From: an uncultured bacterium
GTDB taxonomy: Bacteria; Latescibacterota; UBA2968; UBA8231
Direction: 5' to 3'
Length of the DNA stretch: 42,895 bases
Assembly (NCBI GenBank): GCA_937942165.1
Contig: CALDFW010000031.1
Location: 1-42,895, forward strand
Shown: positions 1 through 42,640 of the stretch, one piece after another
Numbering within the stretch: the stretch's first letter is position 1
Layout of the letters: each line of letters begins with the position of its first letter
Notes under the pieces: model-generated
Database searches by the model: none
What the model was told of the DNA's origin: nothing
The model's input: only the letters and a program-made list of their open reading frames with translations
Position numbers and translations under genes: made by a program

Positions 1-603
1 TACTCCATCAACGGCTGGCACCGACACTGCCGAGGCATATACGACCTGCTGCACGAAAAGCGCATTCTCGACTACGCGGAAGATCTGCTGGGCCCCAATT
101 TGGTGAGCATCATGACGCACTACTTCAGCAAAGAACCGGGAGATGGGAAACAGGTGAGCTGGCATCAGGACGCCTCGTACTGGCCGCTGACGCCGAGCAA
201 GGTCGTCACCGTATGGCTAGCCATCGATGACGTGGACGAAGAAAACGGCCCTATGACGGTGATACCGGGATCGCATCTGCACGGTCAGATCCCCTTTGAG
301 AAGAGCACTGACGAGGAAAATAACGTGCTCGGCCAGAGCGTGCTCAATCCGCTCGACTGGGGCGGAGAGCCCGTACCCTTTACCATGCGCGCCGGTCAAA
401 TATCCATGCATACCGACCTGCTCCTACACGGCTCAGAGCCCAACCGCTCCACGAGGCGGCGCTGCGGTCTGACGCTGCGCTATATGCCGCCCGACGTGCA
501 CACGCGCGAAGCGGAACACGCACACGGCTATCTGTGCAGAGGAGAAGATGAGAGTGGATATTGGATCAGCTGGCCCGTGCCCGAGGGCGACTCAATCCCC
601 TAA
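1..603 (+). CDS. Phytanoyl-CoA dioxygenase (PhyH) family protein, 5'-truncated by window edge
   Basis: The reading frame is open from base 1, so the gene begins outside the window; the ORF-track start at base 100 is only an internal GTG or later codon. The visible product is a non-haem Fe(II)/2-oxoglutarate oxygenase of the PhyH superfamily. It shows the metal motif SWHQDASYW (HxD), the core strand TVWLAIDD, the PGSHLHG segment, and the distal histidine plus 2-oxoglutarate arginine in LLHGSEPN...RRRCGLTLR. It aligns along its whole visible length with the complete paralogue at 26653-27462 and starts at about residue 74 of that protein, so roughly 70 residues are missing. The TAA stop at 601-603 overlaps the stop of the convergent gene on the minus strand, leaving no room for a terminator between them. 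Substrate unknown; small hydrophilic metabolites are as possible as phytanoyl-CoA. Confidence 0.9.
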   Translation, partial: YSINGWHRHCRGIYDLLHEKRILDYAEDLLGPNLVSIMTHYFSKEPGDGKQVSWHQDASYWPLTPSKVVTVWLAIDDVDEENGPMTVIPGSHLHGQIPFEKSTDEENNVLGQSVLNPLDWGGEPVPFTMRAGQISMHTDLLLHGSEPNRSTRRRCGLTLRYMPPDVHTREAEHAHGYLCRGEDESGYWISWPVPEGDSIP

Positions 604-2468
604 TAGACTACGTTGACGAGACCCTGGCGATAGAACGTGCCCGCATCGGCCTCAACTTCGATCTGGTAAATATAGACCCCTTGGGGCACCGTGTTACCAT
701 CGCGGTCGATACCATTCCAAATGCGGGCGAAGCGACCGCTCTGATCGGCGCCGGCAAAGCCGCGCTGCACGCGCTTTCCAGACAGGTCAAAGATCTCAAA
801 CAGCACCGGCGTCGGTTGGTTGAGTCGCAGGAGGTTGTAGGAAACGAGAAGATAGTCGTTGATCCCGTCGTCGTTGGGCGTAAAGACGCGCGTAGACGAG
901 CGAATATCGTCGACCAGCGGATCATTCTGAGACGACAGGCGCACGGCCAAGGTCGCTCCAGGCGAGCGCGGGTCCACATCGCCTGGCTGGGCAAACTGAT
1001 ATATCACTTCGCTCTCGGTCGGCGTAGCCCGTTCGTCGAGTGCCTGAACGCGGAAAGCGGTTCCGTCGGAAAAGACACGCGCGCGAAAAAAGACCTCCAC
1101 AAAACTCGCTTTGGGATCCACGCGATCCCAAAGATCAACGGAAAATCCCTCACCGGCGTTGATCCTCGAAGTGAAAAACGCTTCGCGATCTTTAACTAAA
1201 ACGCGATCGATGGCGGTAATTTCCGCCGCCGTCTGCACCTCTAGCTGACGAAAGCCCGACGTTGGCACGTTTGAATCTTCCAACTGCTGAACCTGCAGTG
1301 CCAGCACGAAATCCGTCTCACTCCCAGCATCAACTGTCGTCGGGCTAATCTCCGCTTCCATAACCTGCGCCAGCGGCCAGCTCGTATACTCAAAGTGCAT
1401 AGTTTCTATTTTAAAGCCCGGCTCGTTCCACTGCAGGCGGAACTGTATATAGTCCTTGGGAGAAGGAGAAATAATGATTCCATCGGTCACCGACTCCCAA
1501 GCGCTCCATTCGGGGTTGGGCAAAATGGGTCCCCGCTCGGCCTCTCCGCGCTCGACGTCGGTTAGATTCACGATATTCTCCCAGCCGCTCTTCCCCACTT
1601 CGCGCAGCGTTTGCGACTTGGTCAACCGCAGAAAGTACTGCACGGGCTTGGGGTCAGGTCCGGTGCGGGTCTGCACCGTAACGGGCAGTTCGTCGGGATC
1701 GCGACCGTTGATGCGCAGCCGCCCCCATACCGGAAATCCACCCGGAACCGTTAGAGGGCGCGAGATAAATTCGACCGGGGCAACGCTGCCGTTGGCAATG
1801 ATCTCCACTTCGGCAATTTCCCAAGGTCGTTCGTTCAGCGTCTCGATCCGAACGTGTCGCATCTCCTTATCGTCGCGCGGCTGATTGGGCAGCGGCCATA
1901 TGACGACACTCTGCGTATTGGGCGAATTGACGTTGGCATTAATAAGAAATGGATTGCCGAAGGGCGTGGCTACAATCGCGTCGGGAAACGGAAGTAACTC
2001 CGGATCCTTGCTATCGGATCCCAGCGCAAATGCCTGCACGTAGAGATCGCGATGATCGGAATCTAATCGCGGATAGAAGCGGATCTGCTGCACGCCGAAG
2101 TGACCGCCCAGATCAATGTAAAGCGACGACTGACGCGCAATGCCAATCTCGTCGGGATTGAACGCCGTATTTTCGTCCCCATCAACCGCCTTAGCCATAG
2201 CTGGACTCGCGGCAAAATCGAGCGTCGGCGTGCCAAAGGAAGTCGTGCCCTCGATCGTCGAAAACACCCGCCCTCCTCGCGCCAGCGCTCCGGGTGCCAA
2301 GTTCGCGCCCGCCTGCACGTTCCACGTCCAAATGGAATCGCGGTCGACGCCCATTTTAGTCGACTCTTCGATGACGGCGGTCCACGGTAAACCGCCTGGA
2401 CCAATAATCATCTCTTCTATCGACCAACTACCGGTTGCGCAAAGCGCTACGAGCAGGAGCACCTTCAT
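600..2468 (-). CDS. Secreted discoidin-like / FlgD-Ig C-terminal domain protein (module A4)
   Basis: 622 aa with a signal peptide (about residues 1-17, ending near GSWS). About residues 80-225 look like a discoidin/F5-8 C-type beta-sandwich (AVDGDENTAFNPDE, then LYIDLGGHFGVQQIRFYPR). A middle region has WSAWESVTDG and YIQFRLQWNEPG. The C-terminal ~95 residues are a FlgD-Ig/gliding-type domain: FTPNDDGINDYL, FEIFDLSGKRVQRG, WNGIDRDGNTVPQGVYIYQIE, ending NVVY. It is the last gene of the eight-gene minus-strand run; its ATG overlaps the stop of the LRR lipoprotein gene (ATGA). Paralogous to the products at 3815, 9890 and 14520. Such C-terminal domains in Bacteroidetes and relatives often act in surface sorting or attachment; a surface or secreted role here is inference. 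No catalytic motif seen. Confidence 0.85.
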   Translation of the reverse strand: MKVLLLVALCATGSWSIEEMIIGPGGLPWTAVIEESTKMGVDRDSIWTWNVQAGANLAPGALARGGRVFSTIEGTTSFGTPTLDFAASPAMAKAVDGDENTAFNPDEIGIARQSSLYIDLGGHFGVQQIRFYPRLDSDHRDLYVQAFALGSDSKDPELLPFPDAIVATPFGNPFLINANVNSPNTQSVVIWPLPNQPRDDKEMRHVRIETLNERPWEIAEVEIIANGSVAPVEFISRPLTVPGGFPVWGRLRINGRDPDELPVTVQTRTGPDPKPVQYFLRLTKSQTLREVGKSGWENIVNLTDVERGEAERGPILPNPEWSAWESVTDGIIISPSPKDYIQFRLQWNEPGFKIETMHFEYTSWPLAQVMEAEISPTTVDAGSETDFVLALQVQQLEDSNVPTSGFRQLEVQTAAEITAIDRVLVKDREAFFTSRINAGEGFSVDLWDRVDPKASFVEVFFRARVFSDGTAFRVQALDERATPTESEVIYQFAQPGDVDPRSPGATLAVRLSSQNDPLVDDIRSSTRVFTPNDDGINDYLLVSYNLLRLNQPTPVLFEIFDLSGKRVQRGFAGADQSGRFARIWNGIDRDGNTVPQGVYIYQIEVEADAGTFYRQGLVNVVY

Positions 2469-3757
2469 GGACCAATTACGTATGCGCCGCGATCACGCAG
2501 GATGGGAATGACGTTGTTTTGCGTGTCCTCAGAGAGCGTATTGCCGCGCACCCAAACGCTTTTAAGACCAGCCAGATCCAGTAGCGGAGACAGATCTGTT
2601 ACCTCGTTATTTGTCAGGTTAAGCGTGGTTAGCTGATCGAGATCGCGCAGCGGAGACAGGTCAACTACGCTGTTTTCTGCCAGGTTTAGAAATTTTAAGC
2701 GCCTCAGATTGGCCAGACTCTCCAGATCGGAGACACCCGCGTTCGGCAGGTTGAGCTCCTCGAGGAACAACATGCCACCGAGTGGCACTAAGCTTTCCAG
2801 CGGCGTGTCGCGCACCGTGAGCACTTTCAATTTTCTGAGAGATGACAGCGGCGTTATATCGCTGAATCCCTGCACGTCACCGGACGACGAAAAGCGAATA
2901 AAGAGGGCCTCCAAGTTGACCAAACGATCAATACCGCTGAGCGACTGAATAGCCCCCGTCGTGTTGAGAAAGGACAAGGTCTCCAACAGGTCGTTGGTGA
3001 TGGGCCCCTTGAGTCCGCCTAGGTGTGCGCGGATATCCTCTTCAAGCGCCGCATCAAAAGGGCTCTCAAAAGGCATGTAATAGTGCACCTGCACACCGCG
3101 CCGTTCAAGCGACTCGATCGCATCGATATCCGCTAATGGGTTGCCAGAAAGCTCTAGGTCTGTCAGCAGGCGCAGGGCCGAAAGCGGCTCGATATCGCGG
3201 ATCTGATTGTTGTCGAGATTAATCAGCCGCAGGCGCCGCAGACTGGCCAGCGGGCCGATGTCGACGATGGCATTGTTCTGCAGGTTTAAGTGGGTCAGCT
3301 GCCGCAGAGGACGCAGCGCCTCAATATCGACGATCTCGTTATCAGACAGACTCAGCGCGTTGAGCCCCTGCAGCTGGGAAAGCGGTCCAATATCGCGGAT
3401 ATCGTTGTCTGATAGATCTAACTGCTGCACGCCAGAGAGCACAGACAGCGGCGTCACATCACTGATCCGATTCGCACCCAGGTCCATCCTGCGCAGCCCC
3501 GTCAACCGTTCAATTCCAGCGAGGTCGACGATATTCCGCTGGGCGACTGAAAGCGTTTCAATCTCACCTAGCCGATCGACCGACAGCGGCCCGCGCGGCA
3601 GACCTAACGCCTCGCGCACAGCGCGCTCTAAGGCCAGGTCAGCAAACTCGGTGTGGTCTATTACACCGGCCGGATCAACGGCTACAGGAGGCGTGGGCGC
3701 CTCCTGACAGGCGAACAGGGCCAGTGTCAACAGGATGTATCCAACAGATATTTTCAT
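2465..3757 (-). CDS. Leucine-rich-repeat lipoprotein (module L2)
   Basis: The ORF track starts at 3790, but the internal ATG at 3757 begins a clean lipoprotein signal (MKISVGYILLTLALFAC, lipobox Cys17), giving 430 aa. The rest is an internalin-like LRR solenoid of ~22-residue units with the pattern LxxLxLxxNxIxDIxPL (for example DLSDNDIRDIGPLSQL). Two solenoid blocks are present. Each is preceded by a similar cap-like helix: ALERAVREALGLPRGPLS near the N terminus and ALEEDIRAHLGGLKGPIT about 200 residues later. No enzymatic motif is present; LRRs bind proteins or glycans. Its stop overlaps the start of the downstream FlgD-Ig gene by four bases (ATGA), the same coupling as in the L1-A3 pair, which suggests the two products work as partners. 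An A8 run (3776-3783) lies just upstream of the chosen start. Confidence 0.87.
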   Translation of the reverse strand: MKISVGYILLTLALFACQEAPTPPVAVDPAGVIDHTEFADLALERAVREALGLPRGPLSVDRLGEIETLSVAQRNIVDLAGIERLTGLRRMDLGANRISDVTPLSVLSGVQQLDLSDNDIRDIGPLSQLQGLNALSLSDNEIVDIEALRPLRQLTHLNLQNNAIVDIGPLASLRRLRLINLDNNQIRDIEPLSALRLLTDLELSGNPLADIDAIESLERRGVQVHYYMPFESPFDAALEEDIRAHLGGLKGPITNDLLETLSFLNTTGAIQSLSGIDRLVNLEALFIRFSSSGDVQGFSDITPLSSLRKLKVLTVRDTPLESLVPLGGMLFLEELNLPNAGVSDLESLANLRRLKFLNLAENSVVDLSPLRDLDQLTTLNLTNNEVTDLSPLLDLAGLKSVWVRGNTLSEDTQNNVIPILRDRGAYVIGP

Positions 3758-3814
3758 ATACTCGCACGTGGTTATAAAAAAAAGATACATCCTACTAAGA
3801 GCCCGTCAAACAGC

Positions 3815-5650
3815 CTAATACACAACGTTTACTACGCCGTGCAGAGTCGTTTTTTTTGCATCGGCATCGACTTCTAACCCGTAGAGATACGTGCCGGGCG
3901 GAACGAGTCGCCCCGAGAAGTCTAAACCGTCCCAAACCCTCAGGTACGAACCACTGGGATCGTCCGAGGCATAGCCCCGCCGCACGAGGCGCCCAGCCAA
4001 GTCGTATATACCAAAAGAGACAGAAGCCGACTGCGTTAGCCTGAGCACGCTGTACGTCAGGACGAAATACTCGCCGCGACCATCGCCGTTGGGCGTGAAG
4101 ACCGCGCTGCGCAGGCGCACATCGTCAAGCAATTCAACCCGCTCTGTCGCCAGCCGCACGCGCAGAGTCCCGCCCGGCGTGCGCGGATCGACGTCAGCGG
4201 CAACGGCCGTTTGATACGCGTCTTCGTCTCCCGCTCCGGTTGGTCGTCGGTCGCGCGCCCGAACCCTGAAATCCGTGCCATCGACAAAGACCCGTGCGCG
4301 AAAAAAGACCTGAATAAACGACCCCTGCGGATCGATCCGTTCGGCAAAGCGCAGCGATACCCCTCCGCTGGGCAGCGGCTCCGTGCTGTAAAACGCGGGG
4401 CGATCCTGCACGAACACGCTGTCGATAGCGACAATTTCGGCCTGCGTCTGTATTTCCACGTAGCGAAAGCCCGAGTCAACGCCGCCCGAGTCGACCAGGC
4501 GACGTGCGCGCAGGTCGATGGCGAAAGGCGTTTCTCTGCCCGGCGCGACCGATCTCGGATTAATCTCAGCCGCCAGCTCTTGTGCCAGCGGGCGGCTGGT
4601 GTATTCGATAGAGACCTGATCTATGCGCGTGCCGGGCTGCAGCAGCTGTATGCGAAACTGAATCACCGGCTGCGGCGGAGATGAGACCTGGCCGTCGTTG
4701 AGCGACTCCCAACGACTCCACAGCGGATTGTCCCGAGGCGGCGCCTGAATGCCGGGAATAGCCGTGGCCCAGTCATTCTTGCTAACCAGCACTAGATCAG
4801 CGCCCCGTTCAAGAAAATACTGCACCGGAGCTAAGTCGGGTCCGCTGCGCGTCTGCACAATAACGGGCAGCGTCTCGGGCGGCTGCCCGTTGATGAGCAG
4901 ACGTCCCCACACCGGACGCGCGTTGCGCACTTCCAGCGGCACGGACAGATACGCTCCAGGCGGCGCAGATCCGTCGGCTATAACTTCAAACTCTGCTATT
5001 TCCCAGTCCCGTTCGCTCAGCGTGCGCAGTCGCACGTGTCGCATCGGGCGCGGATCGTGCGGCTGATTTGGATGGGGCCACAGGACAATACTCTGGTTGT
5101 TGGGCGCATTGATGTGCGCATTGATCAGCGTCGGACTCCCACAGCACACGTCGAATATATCCGTCTCTATCTCGCTCGGATCCAACCCATCCGAGCCCAG
5201 CTGGAAAGCCTGCAGGTAGCGGTCGCGATGTCCCGCGTCGAGGCGGGGAAAAAAGCGGATCTGCTCAACGCCATAGTGTGCTCCCAAGTCGATATACACG
5301 TCTATTTGGCGCGGCAGGCCGTCTGCGGCAGGGTCAAAGGCGGTTCCCGCATCGCCGTCGAGCATGCGGGCTAAACTCGGCCTAGACAGCAGGGTCGGAT
5401 AGGCAAATCCCTGTGCGTCGACCTTTTCGGCGACCGCAAAAATGCGACCCCCGCGCTCCAATACGCGGGGAGCGATATTCTCTCCCCGCTCAGCCTCCCA
5501 AATCCACAGCGAATCAGCCGATACCGAGATGCGATGAGATGATTCCCTTACCTGTTCAAAAGATCGGCCTTCGCTTCCCACTACAAGCGATTCCACGGCC
5601 TCCGCGGCAATCGGCAACGCCAAAAGGAGAAAGACGAAAAGCGCGTTCAT
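3815..5650 (-). CDS. Secreted discoidin-like / FlgD-Ig C-terminal domain protein (module A3)
   Basis: 611 aa with signal peptide MNALFVFLLLALPIAAEA. Architecture matches A4: a discoidin-like N-terminal domain (MLDGDAGTAFDPAADG, VYIDLGAHYGVEQIRFFPR), a segment with LWSRWESLNDG and VIQFRIQLLQPG, a beta-rich middle (ARRLVDSGGVDSGFRYVEIQ, SFIQVFFRARVFVDGTDF), and a C-terminal FlgD-Ig domain (FTPNGDGRGEYF, FGIYDLAGRLVRRGY, VWDGLDFSGRLVPPGTYLYGLE, ending NVVY). The middle and C-terminal halves are clearly similar to A4, so these are recent duplicates. The ATG overlaps the stop of the upstream LRR lipoprotein gene by four bases. A run of eight A (coding strand; 3850-3857) sits close to the 3' end. 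Predicted exported or surface-located; function unknown. Confidence 0.85.
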   Translation of the reverse strand: MNALFVFLLLALPIAAEAVESLVVGSEGRSFEQVRESSHRISVSADSLWIWEAERGENIAPRVLERGGRIFAVAEKVDAQGFAYPTLLSRPSLARMLDGDAGTAFDPAADGLPRQIDVYIDLGAHYGVEQIRFFPRLDAGHRDRYLQAFQLGSDGLDPSEIETDIFDVCCGSPTLINAHINAPNNQSIVLWPHPNQPHDPRPMRHVRLRTLSERDWEIAEFEVIADGSAPPGAYLSVPLEVRNARPVWGRLLINGQPPETLPVIVQTRSGPDLAPVQYFLERGADLVLVSKNDWATAIPGIQAPPRDNPLWSRWESLNDGQVSSPPQPVIQFRIQLLQPGTRIDQVSIEYTSRPLAQELAAEINPRSVAPGRETPFAIDLRARRLVDSGGVDSGFRYVEIQTQAEIVAIDSVFVQDRPAFYSTEPLPSGGVSLRFAERIDPQGSFIQVFFRARVFVDGTDFRVRARDRRPTGAGDEDAYQTAVAADVDPRTPGGTLRVRLATERVELLDDVRLRSAVFTPNGDGRGEYFVLTYSVLRLTQSASVSFGIYDLAGRLVRRGYASDDPSGSYLRVWDGLDFSGRLVPPGTYLYGLEVDADAKKTTLHGVVNVVY

Positions 5651-7062
5651 CGCACCCCGAGAATGCTCACGCCGCGTGCGCGCAGTGCGGGAATATGCTC
5701 TTCGAGTGAATCGCGACTGAGCGGATTGTTACCCAGCGATACCACTTTGAGCCCGTCTAGTTCCAGCAGCGGAGAAATATCGACGATATCGTTGGCCGCC
5801 ATGCGCACATCTTCGAGCGAAACCATGCGCGCCAGAGGCGTAATATCGACAATCGAATTGGACGCAATATTGAGCTTCTTTATACCCCGCAGCGTCGTCA
5901 GCATGGCAATGTCTCGTATCTGATTGCTGGCCAGGTCAAGTTTCTGCAGGCGAAGCAACCTCCTGATCTCGTGAATCTCGCGTATTTGGTTTCCGGTGAG
6001 GATCAGCTCGCGCAGCTCGATCTGTCGCCCCAGCCCGTTGAGCGTCGTCAGCCGACCGATGCTCACGCGCAGCGACGTCAGCAGACTCAGGTCGCGCAGT
6101 GGACGCAGATCGGCGATCGGCGCACCGATAATGTTGATTGTGCGTAGGCGCTCCAACTCGGCCAGCGGCGTCAGGTCGTTGAGCAGCGCGCGGTTGCCGC
6201 GCACCGACAGCATTTCGAGGTTTTTCAGATGTTCGACCCCACCCAGCGTTTGGACCGCGCCCGATATGACGAGCTCCCGAATGCGGAGAAAATCGTCCTC
6301 ATCGAGCGGCCCCACGGGCCGATCCAACGCCTTGCGAATACTCGCCTCAACGCGCTCACTGCTGATGGTCATAGCCTCGGCGTAGAACGTGACCTCTACC
6401 CCGCGCTGACGCAGCGCGCTCAGCGTTGAACGGGCCAGCGGATTGCCCGAGAGCTCGACCCGGCGCAGCTGTGGCAGAGCCGTCAGAGGCGCGACGTCGC
6501 GCACGAGGTTGTTGTCCAGATTGAGCTGGCGCAGGCGGCGCAGCCCGCGCAGCGGACGCAGATCCGAGACGATATTGTCGCCCAAATCGAGAATCTCTAA
6601 TCCCGTGAGCGCAGCGAGCGGTGTGAGGTCCGTTATGGCATTGTCCGATAGGATCAGGACGCGCAGCGAACGCAGGGCAGCTAAGTGCGCCACTCGAGTC
6701 AAACCGTTACCCGCCACATCGAGCGTATCCAGGAGCGCGAGAGGCGCCAGCGCGGCCATCGCTTCATCCCCCAAGCTGTTGTCGGCCAAGTGCAGACGAC
6801 GCAGATTGGGCAATTGTTCGATGCCCGCTAGCTCCACGACACCCCGCTGGGATAGATCTAGGCGCGCAACCGACGCCAGGACCTCGGACGATAGCGCACC
6901 GCGCTCCTGCCCCGCGTGTTGACGCACCGCGCGCTCTAGAGCAGCATCGGCAAAGAGCGTGTGGTCAAAGAGCACATCCTCCTCTGGACCTGGCTGCAGC
7001 GGCACGTCGCGCGCGGTGCAGCCGGCTAGAAGGATCGCGTATAGGAGTAACGTTTTCTTCAT
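5647..7062 (-). CDS. Leucine-rich-repeat lipoprotein (module L1)
   Basis: The start at 7062 is chosen over the track start (7095) because it is preceded by an AGGTGGG Shine-Dalgarno sequence and begins a standard lipoprotein signal (MKKTLLLYAILLAGC, Cys15); length 471 aa. Internalin-like LRR units fill the rest (LILSDNAITDLTPLAALTGL, LDLASNQIRDIAMLTTLRGI). As in L2 there are two solenoid blocks, each introduced by a cap-like helix (ALERAVRQHAGQERGALS and VEASIRKALDRPVGPLD). Cap sequences of this kind recur in LRR proteins of Poribacteria-like genomes. The stop overlaps the next gene (A3) as ATGA, and the upstream B2 gene ends 13 bases before this start, so it sits inside the operon. Likely an outer-membrane-anchored binding protein; ligand unknown. 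Confidence 0.87.
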   Translation of the reverse strand: MKKTLLLYAILLAGCTARDVPLQPGPEEDVLFDHTLFADAALERAVRQHAGQERGALSSEVLASVARLDLSQRGVVELAGIEQLPNLRRLHLADNSLGDEAMAALAPLALLDTLDVAGNGLTRVAHLAALRSLRVLILSDNAITDLTPLAALTGLEILDLGDNIVSDLRPLRGLRRLRQLNLDNNLVRDVAPLTALPQLRRVELSGNPLARSTLSALRQRGVEVTFYAEAMTISSERVEASIRKALDRPVGPLDEDDFLRIRELVISGAVQTLGGVEHLKNLEMLSVRGNRALLNDLTPLAELERLRTINIIGAPIADLRPLRDLSLLTSLRVSIGRLTTLNGLGRQIELRELILTGNQIREIHEIRRLLRLQKLDLASNQIRDIAMLTTLRGIKKLNIASNSIVDITPLARMVSLEDVRMAANDIVDISPLLELDGLKVVSLGNNPLSRDSLEEHIPALRARGVSILGVR

Positions 7063-7075
7063 GCGCCCACCTGCG

Positions 7076-9775
7076 CTAGCGCTCAACTCCAGCATACACC
7101 GTGATAAAACCCCGCGTAGAAGTGCGCGGGCCTTCTACCTCAAAATCCTGCCGGCTCACTGAGAAGCCCAGCACGGTCGTCAGGCGATAGCCCTGATAGT
7201 CTGACACGTCGGTCATCTGAGCCAGCGCCGTCAGTTCAGTATAGCTGTCGTCGGCTCTGGGCGGCGTTGGATCCTGCATCTGCACAAACTTGTGGAACTC
7301 AAAGCCCGTTTCAAGGTACGTGGTGTACATAACGGGTAGGCGACCAATAATCATGCCAATCTGGCTCAGTTCGCGCCGCGTAGCTTCGGTGGCATTAAAC
7401 GAAGAGTAGCGCAGAAACTCGCTTTTCCAAGCGGGAATCAGCGTAAACCGTCCCGCGCTAATGCGATACTCGGCCTTGTTGATGACACCCAAAAAAGACG
7501 TCCGCTCGCTCATGTCGCGCAGATCGAGTTTTTTCGCACTATCGAGCTGATGATATAGCTGCCAGCGCAGCATATTTTTCACCTTCAGGCCGGACGTCGG
7601 CTCGAGATCAATACCGAGCCACGAAGTGTTGACCAGCGTATTGCGCGCCGGCAGTGGGTCGCGCACGGGTCGCAGCTCTCCGCGCGAATTGGGCGGCTGC
7701 ACCCACTGGATAAGATCGTCGCGGATCGTATCTTTCACTTTGCGCGCATCCTGAAAAATGCGCAGGCGTCCCCAAGAAAAGATGTGATCGCCGTTCAGCA
7801 TAAAATACGTCGCCAGGTTGCGTCGTTTGTCGGATATCTGGGCGATGCGCTGCTGCCCTAAGGTCATGCGCCAGTTGGGATGCAAATAGCGCCCCAGATA
7901 TAGGTTGTACCCCTTCTGATCTCGGCGGTACGGCAAATCGGCCAACTCGTCATTTTCAAAGCGATCAATGGTTCCGTTGTGGTTCATATCAACGCCGTAA
8001 AGGAACTCGGGACGGTCGGTGTGAAAGCGGAGAAAGGGCTCCTCGTAGTCGGGAATCCGGTTGGGGCTGTCGTTGTTATCGTTCTGGTTGAAATCGGAAA
8101 TAAAGTCGTTGTTCTCATCCCACCCGGGAAAGATGCTGATATCCCCACTGGTAAAGCCGCGACGGCGCCAGTCGGGATCGCGGTCTTGGTCGTCGTTGTC
8201 GTCGACGTATTCATACAGCTTCAGGTTGTCTCGGTAATCGACAATGCCCGTTTCCTGCACGGTGCGAAACGACGTGGCGTATTCCGGATCGGTCTGAAAT
8301 AGCTCCCCATAGGCAAAATAGGGGTGAGCCACGCGCGATACGTTAGCCATCCACGCCATAGACTTCTGACCGCTGGCGTGATGTTTTTCCAGACTTGGGT
8401 TGGGAAACTTACCCCAACGGTTGTTGACGTTGAGCTCAAAATAGCCGTCAAAGCCTTCCAAATCCGTAAGCTCTACTGTAAAACCGGCAATTTGGTTGGC
8501 CGTCGGCAGCCCGTAATCGAAGACCAGAACGCGCTGATTGGAAGAATCTCGAACGTTGCCGCGCGCGTTGGCCACGGGCACGAAGACCTGACGCAAAAAG
8601 ATGTCGGTCTGCAGATCAGAGCTCACTTCAATCGCGTAGTCGTTGGCCACGACGAGCTCTAGCTGGATCCGCTCAATTTCCGCGGGATCGGGGCCCGAGT
8701 ACGTGCGATCCAACAAATCGTAGCGCAGCAGAATCTCTTCGCTGCCGTCGGCAGCCAAGAAGCCCTTGCGCTGAAAGCCCCCCTCAATAACGGCGCGATA
8801 GCCGATCTCCGAACCGCGCGTCTGGTTGCCCTCGATATCCCACAGGAGAATATCGGCGTCAAAAAGGGCTCCACCACCAACCCCATCTTCGGGCGAGTCG
8901 TCTTTGATCTTAATCTCTATGAAGCTGAGGTTTTCCAGGTTCTGCGAGCCAGTTAGGCTACCCTTGAAAAAGTTGCCCGACAGCGCGTCGTTTTGCGTCT
9001 GCGAATGGTGCGAGTTGATAAAGGTGCCGCCCACTTTAACAAAATCCCCCACCTGCACCTCGACCCGACCTCCGACCAGATTGGTGTTGTCGGTGCGCGC
9101 GGCCGCCGTGATCTGACCCGGACTGGTCTGCGCTCCGTCCGGTTCGCTGATGCGCGAAAGCAGTATCGTACCCATGTACTTATCAGAGGCAAAGTCGAGC
9201 TGAATCCCGTTGAAACGCGGCTTGGAAAACGTCATCGGCGTCAGCGTCGTGCGAATCTGATTGCCGATCGTAATCGCGTAGTGATACTGCCCCTTATGGT
9301 CGGAGGCAATTACCACGTTGTTGAACCAAGATCCAAAGCGGCCGTCTTTAAACAGCGTCGAACCAAAGGGCTGCGGGTTCTCCTGGCGCCAGTCGAATAT
9401 GAGCCAGCCGCGATTGAGGAAGTTGCCAAATAGATCGTAAAAGTAAAATCCCTCGATTGAGGTCGATACATAGCGCTGATAGGTCTCGCGAGCGTAGTTG
9501 GAATACTCCCACTGTTTCCACCCGTATTCCGAGTAGAGTTCCTGCGGTATAAACCATTTGCGCACCGTGGGATCGAGTGCGTCAAAGAGCACGCCGGGCC
9601 CGGTGGGATCAAAGGAGACCTTGCCTCCTCGCTTAACCGTCCCCAACCGCGAACCGTAGGTCTGAGCATCGACCGACGCGGTCGACAGCAACAGAGAGGC
9701 CACCATCCAAAAGACGACGATACATCGCCTGTCGCCCTGTTTACGGTCTCTTGCCAAAGAGTTATTCATCACCAT
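7076..9775 (-). CDS. Large predicted outer-membrane protein with Ca-binding-like repeats (module B2)
   Basis: The track start (9790) is a GTG; the ATG at 9775 follows AAAAGG at good spacing and gives 899 aa. A signal peptide is followed by mature QTYGSRLG (cleavage after SVDA). Alternating aromatic/polar strands run throughout, and the last ~270 residues read like transmembrane beta-strands with periplasmic turns, ending in FITVYAGVER. Before that lies an Asp/Asn-rich stretch (DENNDFISDFNQNDNNDSPN, then GVDMNHNGTIDRFENDELAD) resembling thrombospondin-3/EF-hand calcium loops, around PDYEEPFLRFHTDRPE. Paralogous over its full length to the product at 11833-14517. No family recognised with confidence; outer-membrane location is inferred from composition. 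It lies 114 bases after A2's stop, the largest gap in the run, so an internal promoter is possible. Confidence 0.75.
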   Translation of the reverse strand: MVMNNSLARDRKQGDRRCIVVFWMVASLLLSTASVDAQTYGSRLGTVKRGGKVSFDPTGPGVLFDALDPTVRKWFIPQELYSEYGWKQWEYSNYARETYQRYVSTSIEGFYFYDLFGNFLNRGWLIFDWRQENPQPFGSTLFKDGRFGSWFNNVVIASDHKGQYHYAITIGNQIRTTLTPMTFSKPRFNGIQLDFASDKYMGTILLSRISEPDGAQTSPGQITAAARTDNTNLVGGRVEVQVGDFVKVGGTFINSHHSQTQNDALSGNFFKGSLTGSQNLENLSFIEIKIKDDSPEDGVGGGALFDADILLWDIEGNQTRGSEIGYRAVIEGGFQRKGFLAADGSEEILLRYDLLDRTYSGPDPAEIERIQLELVVANDYAIEVSSDLQTDIFLRQVFVPVANARGNVRDSSNQRVLVFDYGLPTANQIAGFTVELTDLEGFDGYFELNVNNRWGKFPNPSLEKHHASGQKSMAWMANVSRVAHPYFAYGELFQTDPEYATSFRTVQETGIVDYRDNLKLYEYVDDNDDQDRDPDWRRRGFTSGDISIFPGWDENNDFISDFNQNDNNDSPNRIPDYEEPFLRFHTDRPEFLYGVDMNHNGTIDRFENDELADLPYRRDQKGYNLYLGRYLHPNWRMTLGQQRIAQISDKRRNLATYFMLNGDHIFSWGRLRIFQDARKVKDTIRDDLIQWVQPPNSRGELRPVRDPLPARNTLVNTSWLGIDLEPTSGLKVKNMLRWQLYHQLDSAKKLDLRDMSERTSFLGVINKAEYRISAGRFTLIPAWKSEFLRYSSFNATEATRRELSQIGMIIGRLPVMYTTYLETGFEFHKFVQMQDPTPPRADDSYTELTALAQMTDVSDYQGYRLTTVLGFSVSRQDFEVEGPRTSTRGFITVYAGVER

Positions 9776-9889
9776 GTTTACCTTTTGCACTGTGCTTCTA
9801 TATCATCAAAATCAAACGAGGCTCCAGCAGAGGACGTAGTGTCGCTGTGGGAGCAAAAACCCACCCTTTGCCAGTTCACCACAACACGT

Positions 9890-11833
9890 CTAGTGAGCAA
9901 TTACAATGCTACCTGAGTGCACTTCTTCAAACGCATCCGACTCTACGCGCAGCACCCAAATGTATGAACCGGGCAAGAGCAGCGAACCGTCTCCCCCGCG
10001 TCCCTCCCACGAAAAATCCACGGGACCGATGCCCAGATCTGCCGCGAAAGCCGTGTGCACCCGACGACCGGCCAGGTCGTAAATCTCAAAGGACACCGGT
10101 GCCGGCTCAGTGATCTGAAGCACGTTAAAAAAGACGTCCAGCCGGTCGTTTATTCCGTCGCCGTTGGGCGTTATAAAACGAGTACTCGTGCGAATCTCCC
10201 CGATCAGCTTGCCGATCTGAGGCTTGGGAATAGAGACGGCTAAGTCCGAGAGCGCGTCGTCATCTCCCGGCCCAAAATCAACGGCGTTGCCGCCGACTAC
10301 GGCCTGCGGCACGCCCGCAGCCGCCCCGTTAAAAGCCCGGCTGCTAAACGTTGTTCCAAAGCGAAATATGGGTAAGTCAAACGTCAGTTCGAGCAGGGCC
10401 TGATCCTCGGTTATCAGCGGAAAGGAAAGACCAAATCCCTCTTCGCTAACAAAGTCAATTGAAAACTCAATCTCTTCGCCGTTAAGCTTGACCTCGCGCA
10501 CGTCCGTAGTAGCAACATTCGTGTCGACTTCGAGTCGATCAAAGCCATATATCGGCAGCAAATTGCCCTCTGCATCTGCGGTGCGCTCAAGGCGCACGGC
10601 ATAGCGAAAAGTCGCCGGTTCCTCGGCCTGCGTTAGGCGCGGAAAAACCTCGCCTACAAGTCTGTCGGCCAGCGGCGGGCTGAGGTAATCAAACTCAAAC
10701 TGATCGAGCGCCCGCGTGCGAAAGAGCTCCCCCTCAAACTGGAACTGGAACTGCGCATAGCGGCGCGGAGAGGGCGCGGTGATCAAATCGCCGTTGGCCA
10801 CCGGTCGCCAGGTGCTCCAATAGACGTCGTCTTCGCTTATGGGACCGCGATCAAACGGATCCAATGCGAAGTAGGCATCGGGACCAATATCGACCAATTC
10901 GCGCGTAGGGTTCCCCCCGGCGTCCGTGCCGCGTTCGACTCGATTGTAGCGCAGCGGCGTTGGATCGGTGCCCGTGCGCACGCGCGCACTCAGCGAAGAA
11001 AATTCGGCCTCTCCGAGCGCTTCTTCCACCCAGCGCACCGGACCGATCGTCGCCCGCTGTCCCAGATCGATGATGTCTGTCAGATACGTGGCCCGCTGCA
11101 GATAACCCGTTCCGTAGACCTCGATTTCATCGATTTCAAAGGGCACATTGGCCAACGACTTGAGTCGCAAAATCCGCACGTACTGCGGCGGCACGGCGAT
11201 GTCGACAATCGGTTCCTCGTTCTCCACATTGCGCTCGACGAGTATGTCGGGAGACGCGAGGCTCGTCCGTTCGGGGTTAATCCACAGTTCAAACGCCCGC
11301 AAGAAATCGTTTTGGAACGGATGCGTCGGCGTTGGCACCACCGTATTACGCGGATAGAAGCGCACGCGCTGCACGCCTATGGCTGTGCCAAAATCGAGAA
11401 TAACGCGCACGTTGCGCGCGTTTACTTCCGGTTCGAAGGCCGTCGGTTTGCGCGTGAAGGCCACGGTCGGACTGCCGTTGACGGTGCCGCGCAGTTCCGC
11501 TTCAAAACCGCGTCCCACGTCGGGTGAAGTAATGGACGCACCGCGCTCCAGAACGCGCGAAGCAACATTTTCTTGCTCTTCGAAAAAGAGCGGACTGATC
11601 CAACCAGATCGACGGTCAAATTCAATCGAGTTGTCCGGCGAATTTGTCGTATCGATCGAGACGCCGTTGCGCACTTTCGGATCAATACCCCTTCCACCAG
11701 ATCGCCAGGGCGTAGACGGCGAACCCAGTATAAAGGTCCGCGCGCGCTGGGCCTCTACCCCCTCTACAACAAGCAACCAAAGGAGCAAAAACCACGCACT
11801 CCGCATACGGATTTTTATTCTCAATCCCCCCAT
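9890..11833 (-). CDS. Secreted discoidin-like / FlgD-Ig C-terminal domain protein (module A2)
   Basis: 647 aa; hydrophobic signal segment after a short basic start (AWFLLLWLLVVEGVEAQ). The start overlaps the upstream TAA as TAATG; an internal ATG at 11806 would also give a workable signal peptide. The N-terminal half carries a discoidin-like region (VRVILDFGTAIGVQRVRFYPR and VPPQYVRILRLKSL). The middle has WSTWRPVANGDLI and YAQFQFQFEGEL. The C-terminal ~100 residues are FlgD-Ig: FITPNGDGINDRLDVFF, FEIYDLAGRRVHTAF, GSLLLPGSYIWVLRVE, ending IVIAH. It shares architecture with A1, A3 and A4 but is more diverged from A3/A4 than those two are from each other. Probably exported; role unknown. It directly follows the large predicted outer-membrane protein B1, suggesting a functional pair. 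Confidence 0.83.
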   Translation of the reverse strand: MGGLRIKIRMRSAWFLLLWLLVVEGVEAQRARTFILGSPSTPWRSGGRGIDPKVRNGVSIDTTNSPDNSIEFDRRSGWISPLFFEEQENVASRVLERGASITSPDVGRGFEAELRGTVNGSPTVAFTRKPTAFEPEVNARNVRVILDFGTAIGVQRVRFYPRNTVVPTPTHPFQNDFLRAFELWINPERTSLASPDILVERNVENEEPIVDIAVPPQYVRILRLKSLANVPFEIDEIEVYGTGYLQRATYLTDIIDLGQRATIGPVRWVEEALGEAEFSSLSARVRTGTDPTPLRYNRVERGTDAGGNPTRELVDIGPDAYFALDPFDRGPISEDDVYWSTWRPVANGDLITAPSPRRYAQFQFQFEGELFRTRALDQFEFDYLSPPLADRLVGEVFPRLTQAEEPATFRYAVRLERTADAEGNLLPIYGFDRLEVDTNVATTDVREVKLNGEEIEFSIDFVSEEGFGLSFPLITEDQALLELTFDLPIFRFGTTFSSRAFNGAAAGVPQAVVGGNAVDFGPGDDDALSDLAVSIPKPQIGKLIGEIRTSTRFITPNGDGINDRLDVFFNVLQITEPAPVSFEIYDLAGRRVHTAFAADLGIGPVDFSWEGRGGDGSLLLPGSYIWVLRVESDAFEEVHSGSIVIAH

Positions 11834-14517
11834 TAGTCGCCCAGCCCCGCGTTCACAGAGAGAAAGAGCATGCTTGCTCGTTCGGTCGGACGCTCGGCAA
11901 AGTGCTGGCGCTCAACCTGCACGCCGAGGCGAGTGACGAGCTGATAGCCCTGATAGGCAACGCGATTCGTTAGCTGCGTGAGCAGCGTCCACGAACTAAA
12001 GTCTTCAGCTATCTCCTCACGCGCGCCGTCGAGCATCCAAAACCAGGAACGCTCTAGACCTACCTGCAGCTGACTGTCAAAGAGCTGACGACCATAGCGC
12101 GGGAAGTACGAAACGCCGGCCGATTCGGCAAAGAGCGGCTGAGTCCACAGCAGAAACAGCGTCTCTTCGAGGCTTTCGGCCTTATCCGAACGCGTGGTAA
12201 AGGGTCGATCGCGGCGATATTCGCTTTTCCAACGCGGCTCAAAGACGGCCAGACCGACGGGCACGCTCCACTCAGCTCTGCTGATGGCTCCCATAAAGCC
12301 GCTGCGCTGCCGGGCGGGAAAGCCAAATAAGTCGGTGGTCTCGTCGACGCGCTGGTGCACGTCTTCCCACTTGAAGCGATGAGACAGGCGGATATCGGGA
12401 CCGAAGCGATGATTCAGATCCGCGTATAGCACGCCTTTCCAGGTGTCTTTGAAAGGGAGTTGGTCCAGCGTTTCACGCATGCGCCCGGGCGAGCCCAAGG
12501 GCTGAAACCACAGCCATAGATCGTCGGCGATATTGTCTTGGACCGATGCCCCGTGCACAAAGACGCGTAGGGCGCTGCCTCCCTGGAAGCGATAGCGCCA
12601 CCCCAGCAGCCCATACCACGCTTGAGTACGCCCATCTCCAGAAATCAGGCGCATATCCTGCCGTCCGAGCGTCAGAGAAAAACTGGGACCAATATTCGTT
12701 TTCACGTGGGCGTTGTATCCGCGGTGATCGGCCTTGTACGGATAGTCGGGCAGATCGTCGTTTTCAAATCGATCGATCGTCCCGTTGTAGTTCATATCGA
12801 GCCCAAAGAGATATTCCGGCCGGTCGGAGCGAAAGCGCAAAAAGGGCTCTTCATAGTCGGGAAAGGCATTCCCATTCTGATTGTGATCGTTGATAAAATC
12901 ACCGTTCTCATCAAATCCCGGCCAGACGATATCGTTCCAGCTGCGCGAGCGCACGATATTGCCCGCGCGGCGCTCTAAATCGGGACGCTGCCACTCGGGC
13001 AACGCGTTAAAATCGTCGTCGTCATCAACAAATTCCACAATTTGCGGAATGGGGTCTTTGTAGCGTATGCGTCCCTCTTTATCGACCAACCAATGACGGG
13101 TTGTGTACTCGTCCTCGATGTTAAATCCCTCGAAAAACACCGCCCATGGATAGGCGTCCCAACCGGCCTGCACGTAGGATGCCGTGCCGTCCAGATGAAA
13201 GCGCTGGTGCGTTTTTTCAACGGAGTTGGGATAGGAGAAAAAGCGGCGATTGAGCACGGCCTCGCCGCGAATGGAAAGACCGTGCCAGCCGTTGACTTCC
13301 CAGTTAGTCCCCAATAATTCGTTGGCCGTTGGAAGGCCATAGTCCACTTTGATGAATCCCGTGTTGCTGTTGTCCTGCACGTTGCCGCGCGCGCGCCGCA
13401 CCGGTAGAAAAATGATTTCCGGGTTAAACCGTTCGCCGTCCGTTTGCAGATTGGACGCCACTTCAATGCGATAGTCGTTGGCTACGGACAGCTCAAACGT
13501 AGCGCGCGTTATATCGGCCGACGTGATATCTTCATAGCGAAAGCGCGACAGGTCGTACTCCAGCACAATGTTTTCCGCATCGCGCGCGACGAGGCGCCCT
13601 CCCTCGTTGCCACCGCCCTTAATCTTGGGCAGCAGGTCGACCTCGCGACCCCGATATACGTTGCCCTCCCGATCCTCGATAACGATCTCATAATCGGCGA
13701 GTACAGCCGCCGCATCTCCCTGCCCCGGCGAATCGTCGCGCACGCGCACCCACAGTTTGTCCAGCGTGCGATTTTGCTGAGTCGACAGCGTACCGCGCAG
13801 CGGATTGCCCTCGTTAAACTCGAGTTCAGTCTGGGCATTGTGCGCATTGACATAGCTGAGGCCGAGCTTGCTGTAGTCACCGAGCTGAATTTCTGCGTGT
13901 CCGGCCAGCATCTGCGTCACATCCGTGCGCTCTTGGCCGTCGGGCGCCGAAGGCCGAGATGCCAGCAGCGTCGCCATCAGCACATCGTTGGCGTAGTCCA
14001 TGCGCACGCCGTTAAAACGCGGCTTGTACAGAGTGAGCGGGGTAAAGAAAGTGTAGATCTGATCGCCGATCATCAGACGGTAGTTACCACCCTCCCGACG
14101 ATCGCCAGCAACTACGAGACGGCCAAAGAAACGCTGATAGGCGTTTCCCCCCGTATCCTTGTCGATTCGGCTACCGCGCGGCAGAGGCTGCTCTTGGCTC
14201 CAGTTGTACACCATCCACCCACGACCCAAGTGCGTGCCAAACGTGTCGTAAAAATCACTTCCCTCAAGCAGGTTGTTCACGTAGCGCTCATAGTACTGAA
14301 CGGCGTAGCGCGTATCCGATTCGTACCACGGTTGCATATATGTTTCGGGCAGGTGGCGCAGACCGTACCAGCGGTGCACTGCAGGATTGGCGTAATCGAT
14401 TTCAAAGCGGTTACCGTGCGGATTTACCGTGGCAAGACCCCAGCGGCGCGGATCTTCAAGTCGACCCTGCGCTGCGGCGCAAATAGGCAATAGCAGTAAG
14501 AGAAGTATGCGTATCAT
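11833..14517 (-). CDS. Large predicted outer-membrane protein with Ca-binding-like repeats (module B1)
   Basis: 894 aa; signal peptide MIRILLLLLLPICAAAQ. It is a full-length paralogue of B2. Shared segments include KPRFNGVRMDYAND near residue 160, the DYGLPTANELLG segment near residue 400, the Asp-rich calcium-loop-like stretch (DENGDFINDHNQNGNAFPDY and GLDMNYNGTIDRFENDDLPD), and a C-terminal series of alternating beta-strands ending in FLSVNAGLGD. The likely reading is an outer-membrane barrel with a large extracytoplasmic N-terminal region, but no named family could be assigned from the sequence. Two bases separate its ATG from A1's stop and its TAA overlaps A2's ATG, so it is translated within a tight A1-B1-A2 block. 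A periplasmic or surface scaffold that is not a barrel remains possible. Confidence 0.77.
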   Translation of the reverse strand: MIRILLLLLLPICAAAQGRLEDPRRWGLATVNPHGNRFEIDYANPAVHRWYGLRHLPETYMQPWYESDTRYAVQYYERYVNNLLEGSDFYDTFGTHLGRGWMVYNWSQEQPLPRGSRIDKDTGGNAYQRFFGRLVVAGDRREGGNYRLMIGDQIYTFFTPLTLYKPRFNGVRMDYANDVLMATLLASRPSAPDGQERTDVTQMLAGHAEIQLGDYSKLGLSYVNAHNAQTELEFNEGNPLRGTLSTQQNRTLDKLWVRVRDDSPGQGDAAAVLADYEIVIEDREGNVYRGREVDLLPKIKGGGNEGGRLVARDAENIVLEYDLSRFRYEDITSADITRATFELSVANDYRIEVASNLQTDGERFNPEIIFLPVRRARGNVQDNSNTGFIKVDYGLPTANELLGTNWEVNGWHGLSIRGEAVLNRRFFSYPNSVEKTHQRFHLDGTASYVQAGWDAYPWAVFFEGFNIEDEYTTRHWLVDKEGRIRYKDPIPQIVEFVDDDDDFNALPEWQRPDLERRAGNIVRSRSWNDIVWPGFDENGDFINDHNQNGNAFPDYEEPFLRFRSDRPEYLFGLDMNYNGTIDRFENDDLPDYPYKADHRGYNAHVKTNIGPSFSLTLGRQDMRLISGDGRTQAWYGLLGWRYRFQGGSALRVFVHGASVQDNIADDLWLWFQPLGSPGRMRETLDQLPFKDTWKGVLYADLNHRFGPDIRLSHRFKWEDVHQRVDETTDLFGFPARQRSGFMGAISRAEWSVPVGLAVFEPRWKSEYRRDRPFTTRSDKAESLEETLFLLWTQPLFAESAGVSYFPRYGRQLFDSQLQVGLERSWFWMLDGAREEIAEDFSSWTLLTQLTNRVAYQGYQLVTRLGVQVERQHFAERPTERASMLFLSVNAGLGD

Positions 14518-14519
14518 GT

Positions 14520-17027
14520 TCAGTACGCCACGTGAAGCAGCCGCGCAGTCGACGTGCCTGCAGCGTCGCTATCCGTCGCTATGTCAATGCGCATAACGTA
14601 TAGGCCCGGAGGTACGATACGCGCCTCGTCATCGCGCCCGTCCCAGGTAAAAACGTGCTCTCCGCTGGGAAACGAACGCTGCACGCTCAGATCGCGCACG
14701 CGCCGTCCGGACAGGTCAAAGACTTCCACTCCCAGCGTCTTTTCGCGCTCCAGATGGTAGATACTAATGCGTATTTCGACGCGGTCGTTGATCCCATCGC
14801 CGTTGGGCGTAATTGCCCGGGGCTCTATCTGCACGTCTTCGAGCAGCGAGTTTTCCGTGAGCCGCGACACGACGGACAGGCTTTGCGTGGCAACGACCTG
14901 CGTGGCGTCGCCGCCAACTACTTCCTGTAGCAGGTCGGGCTGCTCTGAGCTCTGTAGCTGCACGCTAAAAACCGTGCTCTGCAAGAAAACGCGCGTGCGA
15001 AAGCGGAAGGCGTACACCCCGTTGCCGCCCGTGACCGGAGCCGGAAAGCGCACGGCAACGGCGCCCTCTTCACCGCGCGACACCTCGAGCTGTCCGCCGG
15101 GCCACAGGCGCGAACCCGCACCAAAGCGCAGCGCATCGTCATTTCCCACCTGCACCTCGCTAAGTTCCAACGGCTCAGAGGACGTAGAGCGCAGGGTAAT
15201 CTGATCAAAGCCGGGATTATCGAGACCAAACACGGGACGCACGTAGAGCACAAACTCTTGCTCAACGCCGGGCTCGATGCCTCCCGTGGGATAAATCTCA
15301 CCAAAAGCGGTATCGACCAGCGGAGGCACAAAGTGCAGCCGCAGCGAGCGCAGCCACGCGCGCTGCAGCGGCTCGCGCGAGAGTAGTCGCATCTGCACTT
15401 TGACCAGCGGACGCGGCGCCGGCGATTTGAAGGATGCACCCGAATCCGTATAGGGCTGACTCCAGTTGCTCCAGTCGGGACCGGTAATCTCCTCAAACAC
15501 GGGCGGCGGACGCGGCGTCTGCTCCGTGTCCGGAAGGCGTCTCCACAGATCCTCCGAAATCTCGCGCCCGTTCATAGTGAAGTAGTGAGGCTCCAGCGTG
15601 ACCTTCTCGCCCGTTCGCGTGCGCACCTCAATGCGCGTATTCGGAGGCGCTTCTCCCTCCCACGTCACGTGACTAAAGAGACGGGGACGATCCAACTGAA
15701 CAAAGGGCGACTCCATAGTGATCTCAGAGACGTAGCCCTCGCCGTATGCTTGAATCTCGCTGATGCGTCCCTTTTCAAAGTTAGATCCGCTAAACTCTAG
15801 CTGGCGAAACTCAATATAGCGCACCTCTTTCCGCGGAAAGGCTTCTTCGACGTGCAGGAGGCGCTCGAGGTTACGGCGTTCGTCAAACGTGGTCCAAACA
15901 AAGTTTCCGTTGGCGTCTACAGAACCGTCGGAGATGCGCATTTGGTATGCAAAGGGGGGGCGGTCGGGACTGAGCAACTTGATGCGATCCAACCAGTATT
16001 TCGCACCCAGATCGATTTCCACCTGGTTCTCGTCCTGCACCGCATCGTAAAAGAGCATGTCTTTGTTCGTGGCAAAGAGACCGTCCGTAAAGGTGCGGAA
16101 GAGCAGGAAGTCGTACTGGCCAATTGACAGCGCCTCGCGCTCGCGCTCGGCTTGCGTAATGGCAATGATATTCTCGCCCAGCGCAAACACCTCGACCTCG
16201 CTCAGGCGCGGTCGCTCGCGTCGGTGGTAGCGAATGGGACCGCGCTCCTCTTGGACCAAGTCGGCATACGTATTCTGGCTGACGGCGATCAGGCGACCGC
16301 TCGACGTCTGCAGGAAGTAGTCGACGTCGCCGCGATCCTCTTCGGCGAGCAGGGCATATTCTTCGGGGGAAACCTCCTCTGCGCGCCCTCCCGCCGTAGA
16401 GAGCACGTCGATGCGCACCTTCTGCACGATGGCCCCCTCAATACCCTCGGCCACCTTGCGCTGCGGCGTCAGTTCAAAGGTGAATTCGCGCTGGCCCGAT
16501 AGATTGCGCACGAGTCCCACGCGCGAGAAGATCTCGCCGGCCCGACCCGAGGCAACTAAGCCATCTGACGTCAGGACGCGAAACTGGCGAAAAGGGTCCC
16601 CCTCCCCTTCGTCTGCAAAGCGAATAACGATTCGATTGACAATGAGCGTGCGCTGTAAATCGAGTTCAAACGTCCACGTAGAGATATCGTCCAGACCGCT
16701 GGGCTCCCAGTGCGTGGTCGGATCGCCATCTACCGCCAGCATCGCATTTTCTGGATTGCTGTCGGCAACCGCCAGCGCGACAACGGAGTCGTCTTCGGCG
16801 CTGTAGACGGCGTTGACGTTGCCGCGCAGCAAGCGCGGGATCACCGTTCCATCATCGCGAATAATCCGGGCCCCCGTAGGTGCTTCCCACACGGCCCAGT
16901 CCTCCGGCGCCTCAATCAGGATGCGGTCTTCCAACACCTCGTATCCCACCGGCCCCTCTTCTTCTTCCTGCGCGAAGAGAAGCGGCGTATACAGCACGAG
17001 CAGCGTGTATGTGAGTAACTGGATCAA
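14520..17027 (-). CDS. Secreted discoidin-like / FlgD-Ig C-terminal domain protein, largest copy (module A1)
   Basis: 835 aa, first gene of the eight-gene minus-strand run. The only usable start near the signal peptide is a TTG at 17027, because an in-frame TAA lies just upstream; the signal is hydrophobic (LLTYTLLVLYTPLLFAQ). Two discoidin-like segments can be seen: AVDGDPTTHWEPSGLDD with TWTFELDLQRTLIVNRIVIRF near residues 90-130, and a second set (FYDAVQDENQVEIDLGAKYW) near 330. There follow WSNWSQPYTDSG, a beta-rich middle, and a C-terminal FlgD-Ig domain (ITPNGDGINDRVEIRI, VEVFDLSGRRVRDL, WDGRDDEARIVPPGLYVMRI, ending LLHVAY). Longer than its paralogues because of the extra N-terminal domain. 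Likely surface or secreted adhesin-type protein; no catalytic motif. Confidence 0.83.
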   Translation of the reverse strand: MIQLLTYTLLVLYTPLLFAQEEEEGPVGYEVLEDRILIEAPEDWAVWEAPTGARIIRDDGTVIPRLLRGNVNAVYSAEDDSVVALAVADSNPENAMLAVDGDPTTHWEPSGLDDISTWTFELDLQRTLIVNRIVIRFADEGEGDPFRQFRVLTSDGLVASGRAGEIFSRVGLVRNLSGQREFTFELTPQRKVAEGIEGAIVQKVRIDVLSTAGGRAEEVSPEEYALLAEEDRGDVDYFLQTSSGRLIAVSQNTYADLVQEERGPIRYHRRERPRLSEVEVFALGENIIAITQAEREREALSIGQYDFLLFRTFTDGLFATNKDMLFYDAVQDENQVEIDLGAKYWLDRIKLLSPDRPPFAYQMRISDGSVDANGNFVWTTFDERRNLERLLHVEEAFPRKEVRYIEFRQLEFSGSNFEKGRISEIQAYGEGYVSEITMESPFVQLDRPRLFSHVTWEGEAPPNTRIEVRTRTGEKVTLEPHYFTMNGREISEDLWRRLPDTEQTPRPPPVFEEITGPDWSNWSQPYTDSGASFKSPAPRPLVKVQMRLLSREPLQRAWLRSLRLHFVPPLVDTAFGEIYPTGGIEPGVEQEFVLYVRPVFGLDNPGFDQITLRSTSSEPLELSEVQVGNDDALRFGAGSRLWPGGQLEVSRGEEGAVAVRFPAPVTGGNGVYAFRFRTRVFLQSTVFSVQLQSSEQPDLLQEVVGGDATQVVATQSLSVVSRLTENSLLEDVQIEPRAITPNGDGINDRVEIRISIYHLEREKTLGVEVFDLSGRRVRDLSVQRSFPSGEHVFTWDGRDDEARIVPPGLYVMRIDIATDSDAAGTSTARLLHVAY

Positions 17028-42485: not shown

Positions 42486-42530
42486 ACCGCACCCCCTTGT
42501 GAAGATATATCTCCGCCAAACCAAGTCATC

Positions 42531-42640
42531 TCTATTGGGTGACAACATACAAAAGGGGGTATTCAGAACCAAGAAGGTTAGAAGAACATACTATTGGCCA
42601 CCCACTCTGTTCTATGAGAACATAAATCGATCTATTGGGT
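42531..42640. repeat. Pair of direct repeats upstream of the tandem PhyH gene
   Basis: TCTATTGGGT occurs at 42531-42540 and again at 42631-42640, exactly 100 bases apart, and the related GGGTATTCA occurs at 42557-42565 and 42637-42645. They lie in the divergent region between the tandem PhyH gene and the DUF2237 gene. They could be binding sites or remnants of a duplication; no function can be assigned. Confidence 0.4.

Follow-up and report, generated by a model that had tools for sequence, protein, structure and literature searches.

Recurrent pairs of putative T9SS-sorted surface proteins and predicted outer-membrane barrels in uncultured Latescibacterota

In the Bacteroidota, type-A substrates of the T9SS use PorV, while type-B substrates have a dedicated PorP/SprF carrier, which is often encoded adjacent to the substrate and stays bound to it (PMC9143113, PMC12618676, PMC12635249). 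The system is described as exclusive to the Bacteroidota in a recent paper (PMC12618676) and is placed in the FCB superphylum by a review (PMC11205867). Our literature search found no paper on T9SS in Latescibacterota, and the Latescibacterota genome papers that were searched for secretion terms do not mention it. The window analyzed here is a stretch of 42,895 nucleotides from an uncultured bacterium of this phylum (assembly GCA_937942165.1, contig CALDFW010000031.1). It carries a putative operon of three protein types, A, B and L, in which A and B genes are arranged like sprB and sprF of Flavobacterium johnsoniae, that is, a substrate gene followed directly by the gene of an outer-membrane barrel, here a predicted one. 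As in PorP/SprF systems, the genome holds several paralogous pairs together with orphan substrate genes, and as in type-B T9SS systems a PNGDG-type C-terminal domain stands against a type-A domain in the presence of SprA and PorV.

The operon occupies positions 600-17027 of the window, where a check of the open reading frames gives eight minus-strand genes in the order A1-B1-A2-B2-L1-A3-L2-A4. A1 (14520-17027, 835 aa, TTG start) is composed of a Sec signal, an F5/8C discoidin-like domain, middle beta domains and a C-terminal domain that resembles T9SS type-B domains and ends in VAY, and A2 (9890-11833, 647 aa) is an A-type protein in which the TPNGDGIND motif is present and the last residue is His, not Tyr. 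B2 (7076-9790, 904 aa) is predicted, from AlphaFold2 and Foldseek, to form an outer-membrane beta-barrel with about 22 strands, into which a beta domain is inserted, and B1 (11833-14517, 894 aa), which belongs to the first subfamily, is assigned as a barrel by its homology to the modelled B2. The leucine-rich-repeat lipoproteins L1 (5647-7095, 482 aa) and L2 (2465-3790, 441 aa) both match Pfam LRR_4, and each is paired with an A-type protein, A3 (3815-5650, 611 aa) and A4 (600-2468, 622 aa), respectively. The likelier start of L1 lies 11 codons inside its open reading frame, at MKKTLLLYAILLAGC, and gives an LAGC lipobox.

Both L-A joints show an ATGA start-stop overlap and the stop codon of B1 overlaps the start codon of A2 in TAATG, as read on the sequence; A1 and B1 are 2 bp apart, and the only large intergenic gap, 99 bp, separates A2 from B2. 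A3 and A4 share 48% identity, A2 and A4 29%, and A1 is 24-26% identical to the other A proteins over its C-terminal part; B1 and B2 share 36% over their full length, and L1 and L2 35%. A preliminary description of this DNA had given the same gene order, strand, three protein types and start-stop overlaps, all of which agree with the open reading frames, identities and domains found here. No link to the operon is seen for the neighbouring genes in the window, which code for an RsmB/F methyltransferase, a TonB receptor, a sulfatase and PhyH proteins. Genes of PhyH-type dioxygenases are repeated along the window (1-603, 26653-27462, 33846-34604 and 40752-42572), and the one at 1-603, truncated at the edge of the window, bears a weak resemblance to chlorinating enzymes.

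The operon is a single member of an extensive gene family that is repeated in this uncultured phylum. The genome of origin comprises 3.46 Mb in 221 contigs and is 74% complete; with gene counts that rest on searches and on retrieved sequence stretches, its 25 matches to B2 correspond to about 22 B genes, some of them cut by contig ends, and at least 40 A genes are present. Contigs C62, where L and A are found as well, and C180 repeat the order A1-B1-A2-B2, and C172 and C154 repeat part of it. Scanning species genomes yielded at least 79 loci, mostly titled Candidatus Latescibacterota or Gemmatimonadetes; among them A-B-A-B, with or without L-A, was seen at L043, L044, L045, L089 and L096, and locus L042 has B-L-A-L-A in exactly the order of that part of the window operon. 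This recurrence on further contigs and in other genomes shows that the arrangement is not due to chance. In the trees, A1, A2 and the L-linked A proteins cluster by operon position, with the A2 orthologues forming a clade, and B1 groups with B genes at the same position elsewhere. L2 groups with the second L of L042, the window A3 pairs with the first L-linked A of that locus and A4 with the second one, which indicates that the doubling of L-A predates that split.

The upstream side could be read for 117 B genes. In 83 of them an A gene immediately precedes B on the same strand, at a distance of no more than 300 bp, and in 17 another B does. Of 64 genomes of the phylum, 39 have both A and B and 25 have neither, a presence pattern that follows families and so reflects few independent gains or losses. 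Distances between adjacent A and B proteins correlate (r = 0.72, 80 pairs), and within the genome of origin the correlation is stronger (r = 0.93, 12 pairs); no permutation reached the observed correlation. The A sequences are highly diverged (median 27% identity), and for distant pairs the correlation is weak and the A C-terminal domain does not track B (r = -0.09). These correlations imply that A and B were inherited and duplicated together, and the co-divergence is read as shared inheritance, not as contact. A genes are about twice as many as B genes, so many A lack an adjacent B. Three diverged tandem B genes without an adjacent A were observed at L118:1-8488, and at L021 two diverged B genes of about 1000 aa, from a distant branch of the family, lie near a large TPR-like protein.

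The preliminary description had also proposed an A-B-L system and had suggested looking for this gene order in related genomes, where it does exist. The recurring unit is A-B, in many copies. L was found only in operons of the A-B-A-B type, and at L010 and L044 other proteins stand in its place; a three-part system of A, B and L was considered and rejected on these grounds, and L is regarded as an accessory specific to that one type of operon.

In A proteins, a signal peptide and a discoidin-like domain are followed by beta domains in the middle and an Ig-like domain at the C-terminus. The discoidin-like domain is over the Pfam cut-off in A1 only (F5_F8_type_C_2 and F5_F8_type_C) and below it in A4, and a profile of A matches solved domains of the discoidin/CBM32 type with E-values down to 8e-8. 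At the C-terminus, all four window A pass the Pfam cut-offs of FlgD_ig and CHU_C, the latter with scores of 27.2-36.4 against a cut-off of 27. The FlgD-Ig end claimed previously stands as a Pfam match, and the domain reads instead as a type-B-like T9SS sorting domain. The TPNGDGxND motif is a hallmark of T9SS type-B C-terminal domains. In 40 A proteins sampled from other contigs of the same genome, PNxDG is present in 36 and the full [TS]PNGDGxND in 29, and every one ends in Tyr. Neither motif occurs in 28 non-A secreted proteins of that genome, which have other N-terminal parts; nearly all of these carry PNP(F) and 26 of the 28 end in Arg or Lys. The type-B model TIGR04131 matches 15 of 23 scanned A proteins (best E = 2.5e-8) and the type-A model TIGR04183 matches six, against 23 of 23 scanned non-A proteins for the latter. 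Two C-terminal classes, TPNGDGIND... in A and the type-A PNPFN... in the other secreted proteins, are therefore exclusive in this genome.

From sequence, then, the A C-terminal domain appears type-B-like, yet the window A proteins all fall below the curated TIGR04131 cut-off of 35 bits, A4 scoring 22 bits. Tyr is the last residue of A1, A3 and A4, and His that of A2. Tyr is also terminal in 149 of 154 A proteins from other genomes, and the 83 A encoded immediately before B all close with Tyr, Phe or His; a final Tyr is a feature of this group. The earlier idea that A is a surface-exposed binding protein looks correct as a prediction; attachment to a host or to particles is a guess.

The B members tested matched no family of Pfam or NCBIfam better than chance, and a sequence-based search of solved structures returned nothing of note. 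With 98 sequences, AlphaFold2 models B2 confidently as a barrel (pLDDT 85.8, pTM 0.85); this model replaced a mediocre first one from 18 sequences (pLDDT 72). About 22 barrel strands can be counted; the inserted beta domain follows the fifth strand, and strands nine and ten flank an acidic region. The top Foldseek matches are outer-membrane barrels (MtrB, SlpA, LptD, ushers) with TM-scores of at most 0.32, normalized to B, from which the class of B is clear and its exact fold is without a close solved match; this fits the outer-membrane location put forward before, as a predicted barrel. The acidic region of B2 (7907-8227, minus strand, approximately residues 522-628) holds three conserved loops that resemble calcium sites and are near-invariant over the 98 sequences. 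One of them has EF-hand-like spacing (B2 residues 601-612, D-x-N-x-N-x-x-x-D-x-x-E), its D, N, N, D and E being conserved in 100, 99, 100, 95 and 100% of the sequences, respectively. The calcium-loop-like repeats noted earlier are thus real, and calcium binding by them is putative. A relationship of B to SprA was considered and rejected, as the profile comparison matched only a 21-residue acidic loop at a probability of 2%.

The genome of origin encodes SprA (643 bits against a cut-off of 200), which was detected in 63 of 64 phylum genomes, including every genome with A and B. It also has seven matches to the PorV family (PorV_fam, 263 bits) and a PorU-like C25 protease (Peptidase_C25, 268 bits). 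The porU-like frame reaches the end of contig C61 and seems to be completed at the beginning of C40, immediately ahead of a PorV gene (L041, L122); the two contigs probably join. At L121 (contig C26), a gene for a protein with a type-A C-terminal domain is followed by two PorV-family genes. PorP/SprF (PF11751) was not found in this genome or in two single-contig relatives with A and B. Two relatives that lack B give weak PF11751 matches, but these coincide with hits to the PorV family and are not taken as PorP/SprF. GldM gave no match in five genomes, with a GldM control that was equally silent, and GldK matches were all under the cut-off, so a complete T9SS motor and energy chain is putative.

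Taken together, we consider it somewhat more probable than not that A is a surface binding protein exported by the T9SS, that B is its dedicated outer-membrane carrier and anchor in place of SprF, and that L serves operons of this type as an accessory lipoprotein. The A proteins would be carried across the inner membrane by Sec, and the SprA translocon would read their type-B-like C-terminal domain. On the cell surface, the discoidin-like and other beta domains would be exposed and probably bind glycans or other ligands. Each B barrel may collect one A, or a small set of them, and hold it at the surface, which would be the role of the unrelated and much smaller PorP/SprF for type-B substrates in the Bacteroidota, and L1 and L2 may act as accessory binding partners of A3 and A4. 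We infer the export of A, its contact with B and the roles of B and L; for B, the carrier and anchor role is suggested by an A-B arrangement that matches the type-B logic of the Bacteroidota, with B in the place of PorP/SprF. The two exclusive C-terminal classes, the presence of SprA, PorV and a PorU-like protease where PorP/SprF was not found, the position of B downstream of A, their co-occurrence and co-divergence, and the confident barrel model all argue for a carrier.

Against it, B shows no homology to PorP/SprF in any test run: none of 18 B matched PF11751, so the B family is not PorP/SprF, and B, with about 860 aa and about 22 strands, differs from the 14-stranded, much smaller PorP/SprF. 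A likewise departs from the Bacteroidota type-B substrates in its final Tyr, which is group-specific, in scores below the TIGR04131 cut-off, as for A4, in its higher copy number and in belonging to another phylum. The excess of A over B, the GldM and GldK results, the few independent gains or losses and a co-divergence that does not speak for contact weigh on the same side.

A different function would apply if A and B worked as SusD and SusC do in nutrient capture, with A binding a surface polymer, B as the import pore and the downstream genes processing the product. SusC-type barrels are also 22-stranded, SusC/SusD likewise combine a surface binding protein with a large barrel in repeated paralogous pairs, A has its discoidin/CBM32-like domain, and sulfatases, DUF6785 membrane proteins or CBM9-like proteins are encoded downstream at a few B loci. 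We nevertheless judge such an importer unlikely, since 18 B gave no match to Plug or TonB-dependent receptor families, A has no SusD family match and its distinct, secretion-type C-terminal domain would be left unexplained, and the window operon is without a catabolic gene. The commonest families downstream of B are moreover TPR (about 23 of 97) and PpiC (16 of 97), not catabolic enzymes. These same genes, which recur directly downstream of B, could be periplasmic helpers if B were instead an export pore for A that is independent of SprA, in an undescribed form of two-partner secretion and anchoring, and the size of B, far beyond that of PorP/SprF, would suit such a pore. The T9SS translocon, for its part, includes a PPI and the TPR lipoprotein SprE (PMC10994853), which the PpiC and TPR proteins downstream of B recall. 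With SprA in every genome that has A and B, a recognizable T9SS-type sorting domain on A and no known secretion domain found in B, an independent pore is quite improbable.

B might finally be a structural tether like Deinococcus SlpA, holding A as an abundant coat protein. SlpA, a large outer-membrane barrel of the SDBC complex, is among the best Foldseek matches (E = 5e-7), and the conserved acidic loops and many paralogues of B would agree with this. The TM-scores are low, about 0.2-0.3, no sequence relation was found, and A, at its median identity of 27%, is too diverged for a single coat protein, which makes the tether highly unlikely. If B is instead the carrier and anchor of A, the two-class T9SS logic, with type-A substrates served by PorV and type-B substrates by a carrier of their own, exists beyond the Bacteroidota, and the type-B carrier there is a different and much larger barrel. 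A barrel family that has no entry in Pfam or NCBIfam would thereby gain a function, and a sizeable group of surface genes of uncultured bacteria would be accounted for. A further step, that B represents a carrier or pore class of the outer membrane that is new and has no relation to PorP/SprF, which evolved with type-B-like T9SS substrates in this phylum and, expanded to tens of copies per genome, would give the cell dozens of barrel-held surface binding proteins, is a tentative proposal with slightly less than an even chance in our estimate.

The genes downstream of B vary and L was found only in A-B-A-B operons, a pattern that points to A-B as a surface module of general use whose accessories can be exchanged. 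At L010 and L044 the position of L is occupied by a CBM9-like protein and a small lipoprotein, and other B operons continue with TPR proteins, PpiC-type PPIases, UnbV/ASPIC, CBM9-like or DUF6785 membrane proteins, among others. The A-B operons at L012, L056, L074 and L078 are followed by genes for membrane proteins of the DUF6785/DUF6784 type, sometimes with sulfatases. At L017, L094 and L115, B is followed by a TPR protein and two tandem FG-GAP/UnbV-ASPIC proteins, a cassette that is repeated across genomes.
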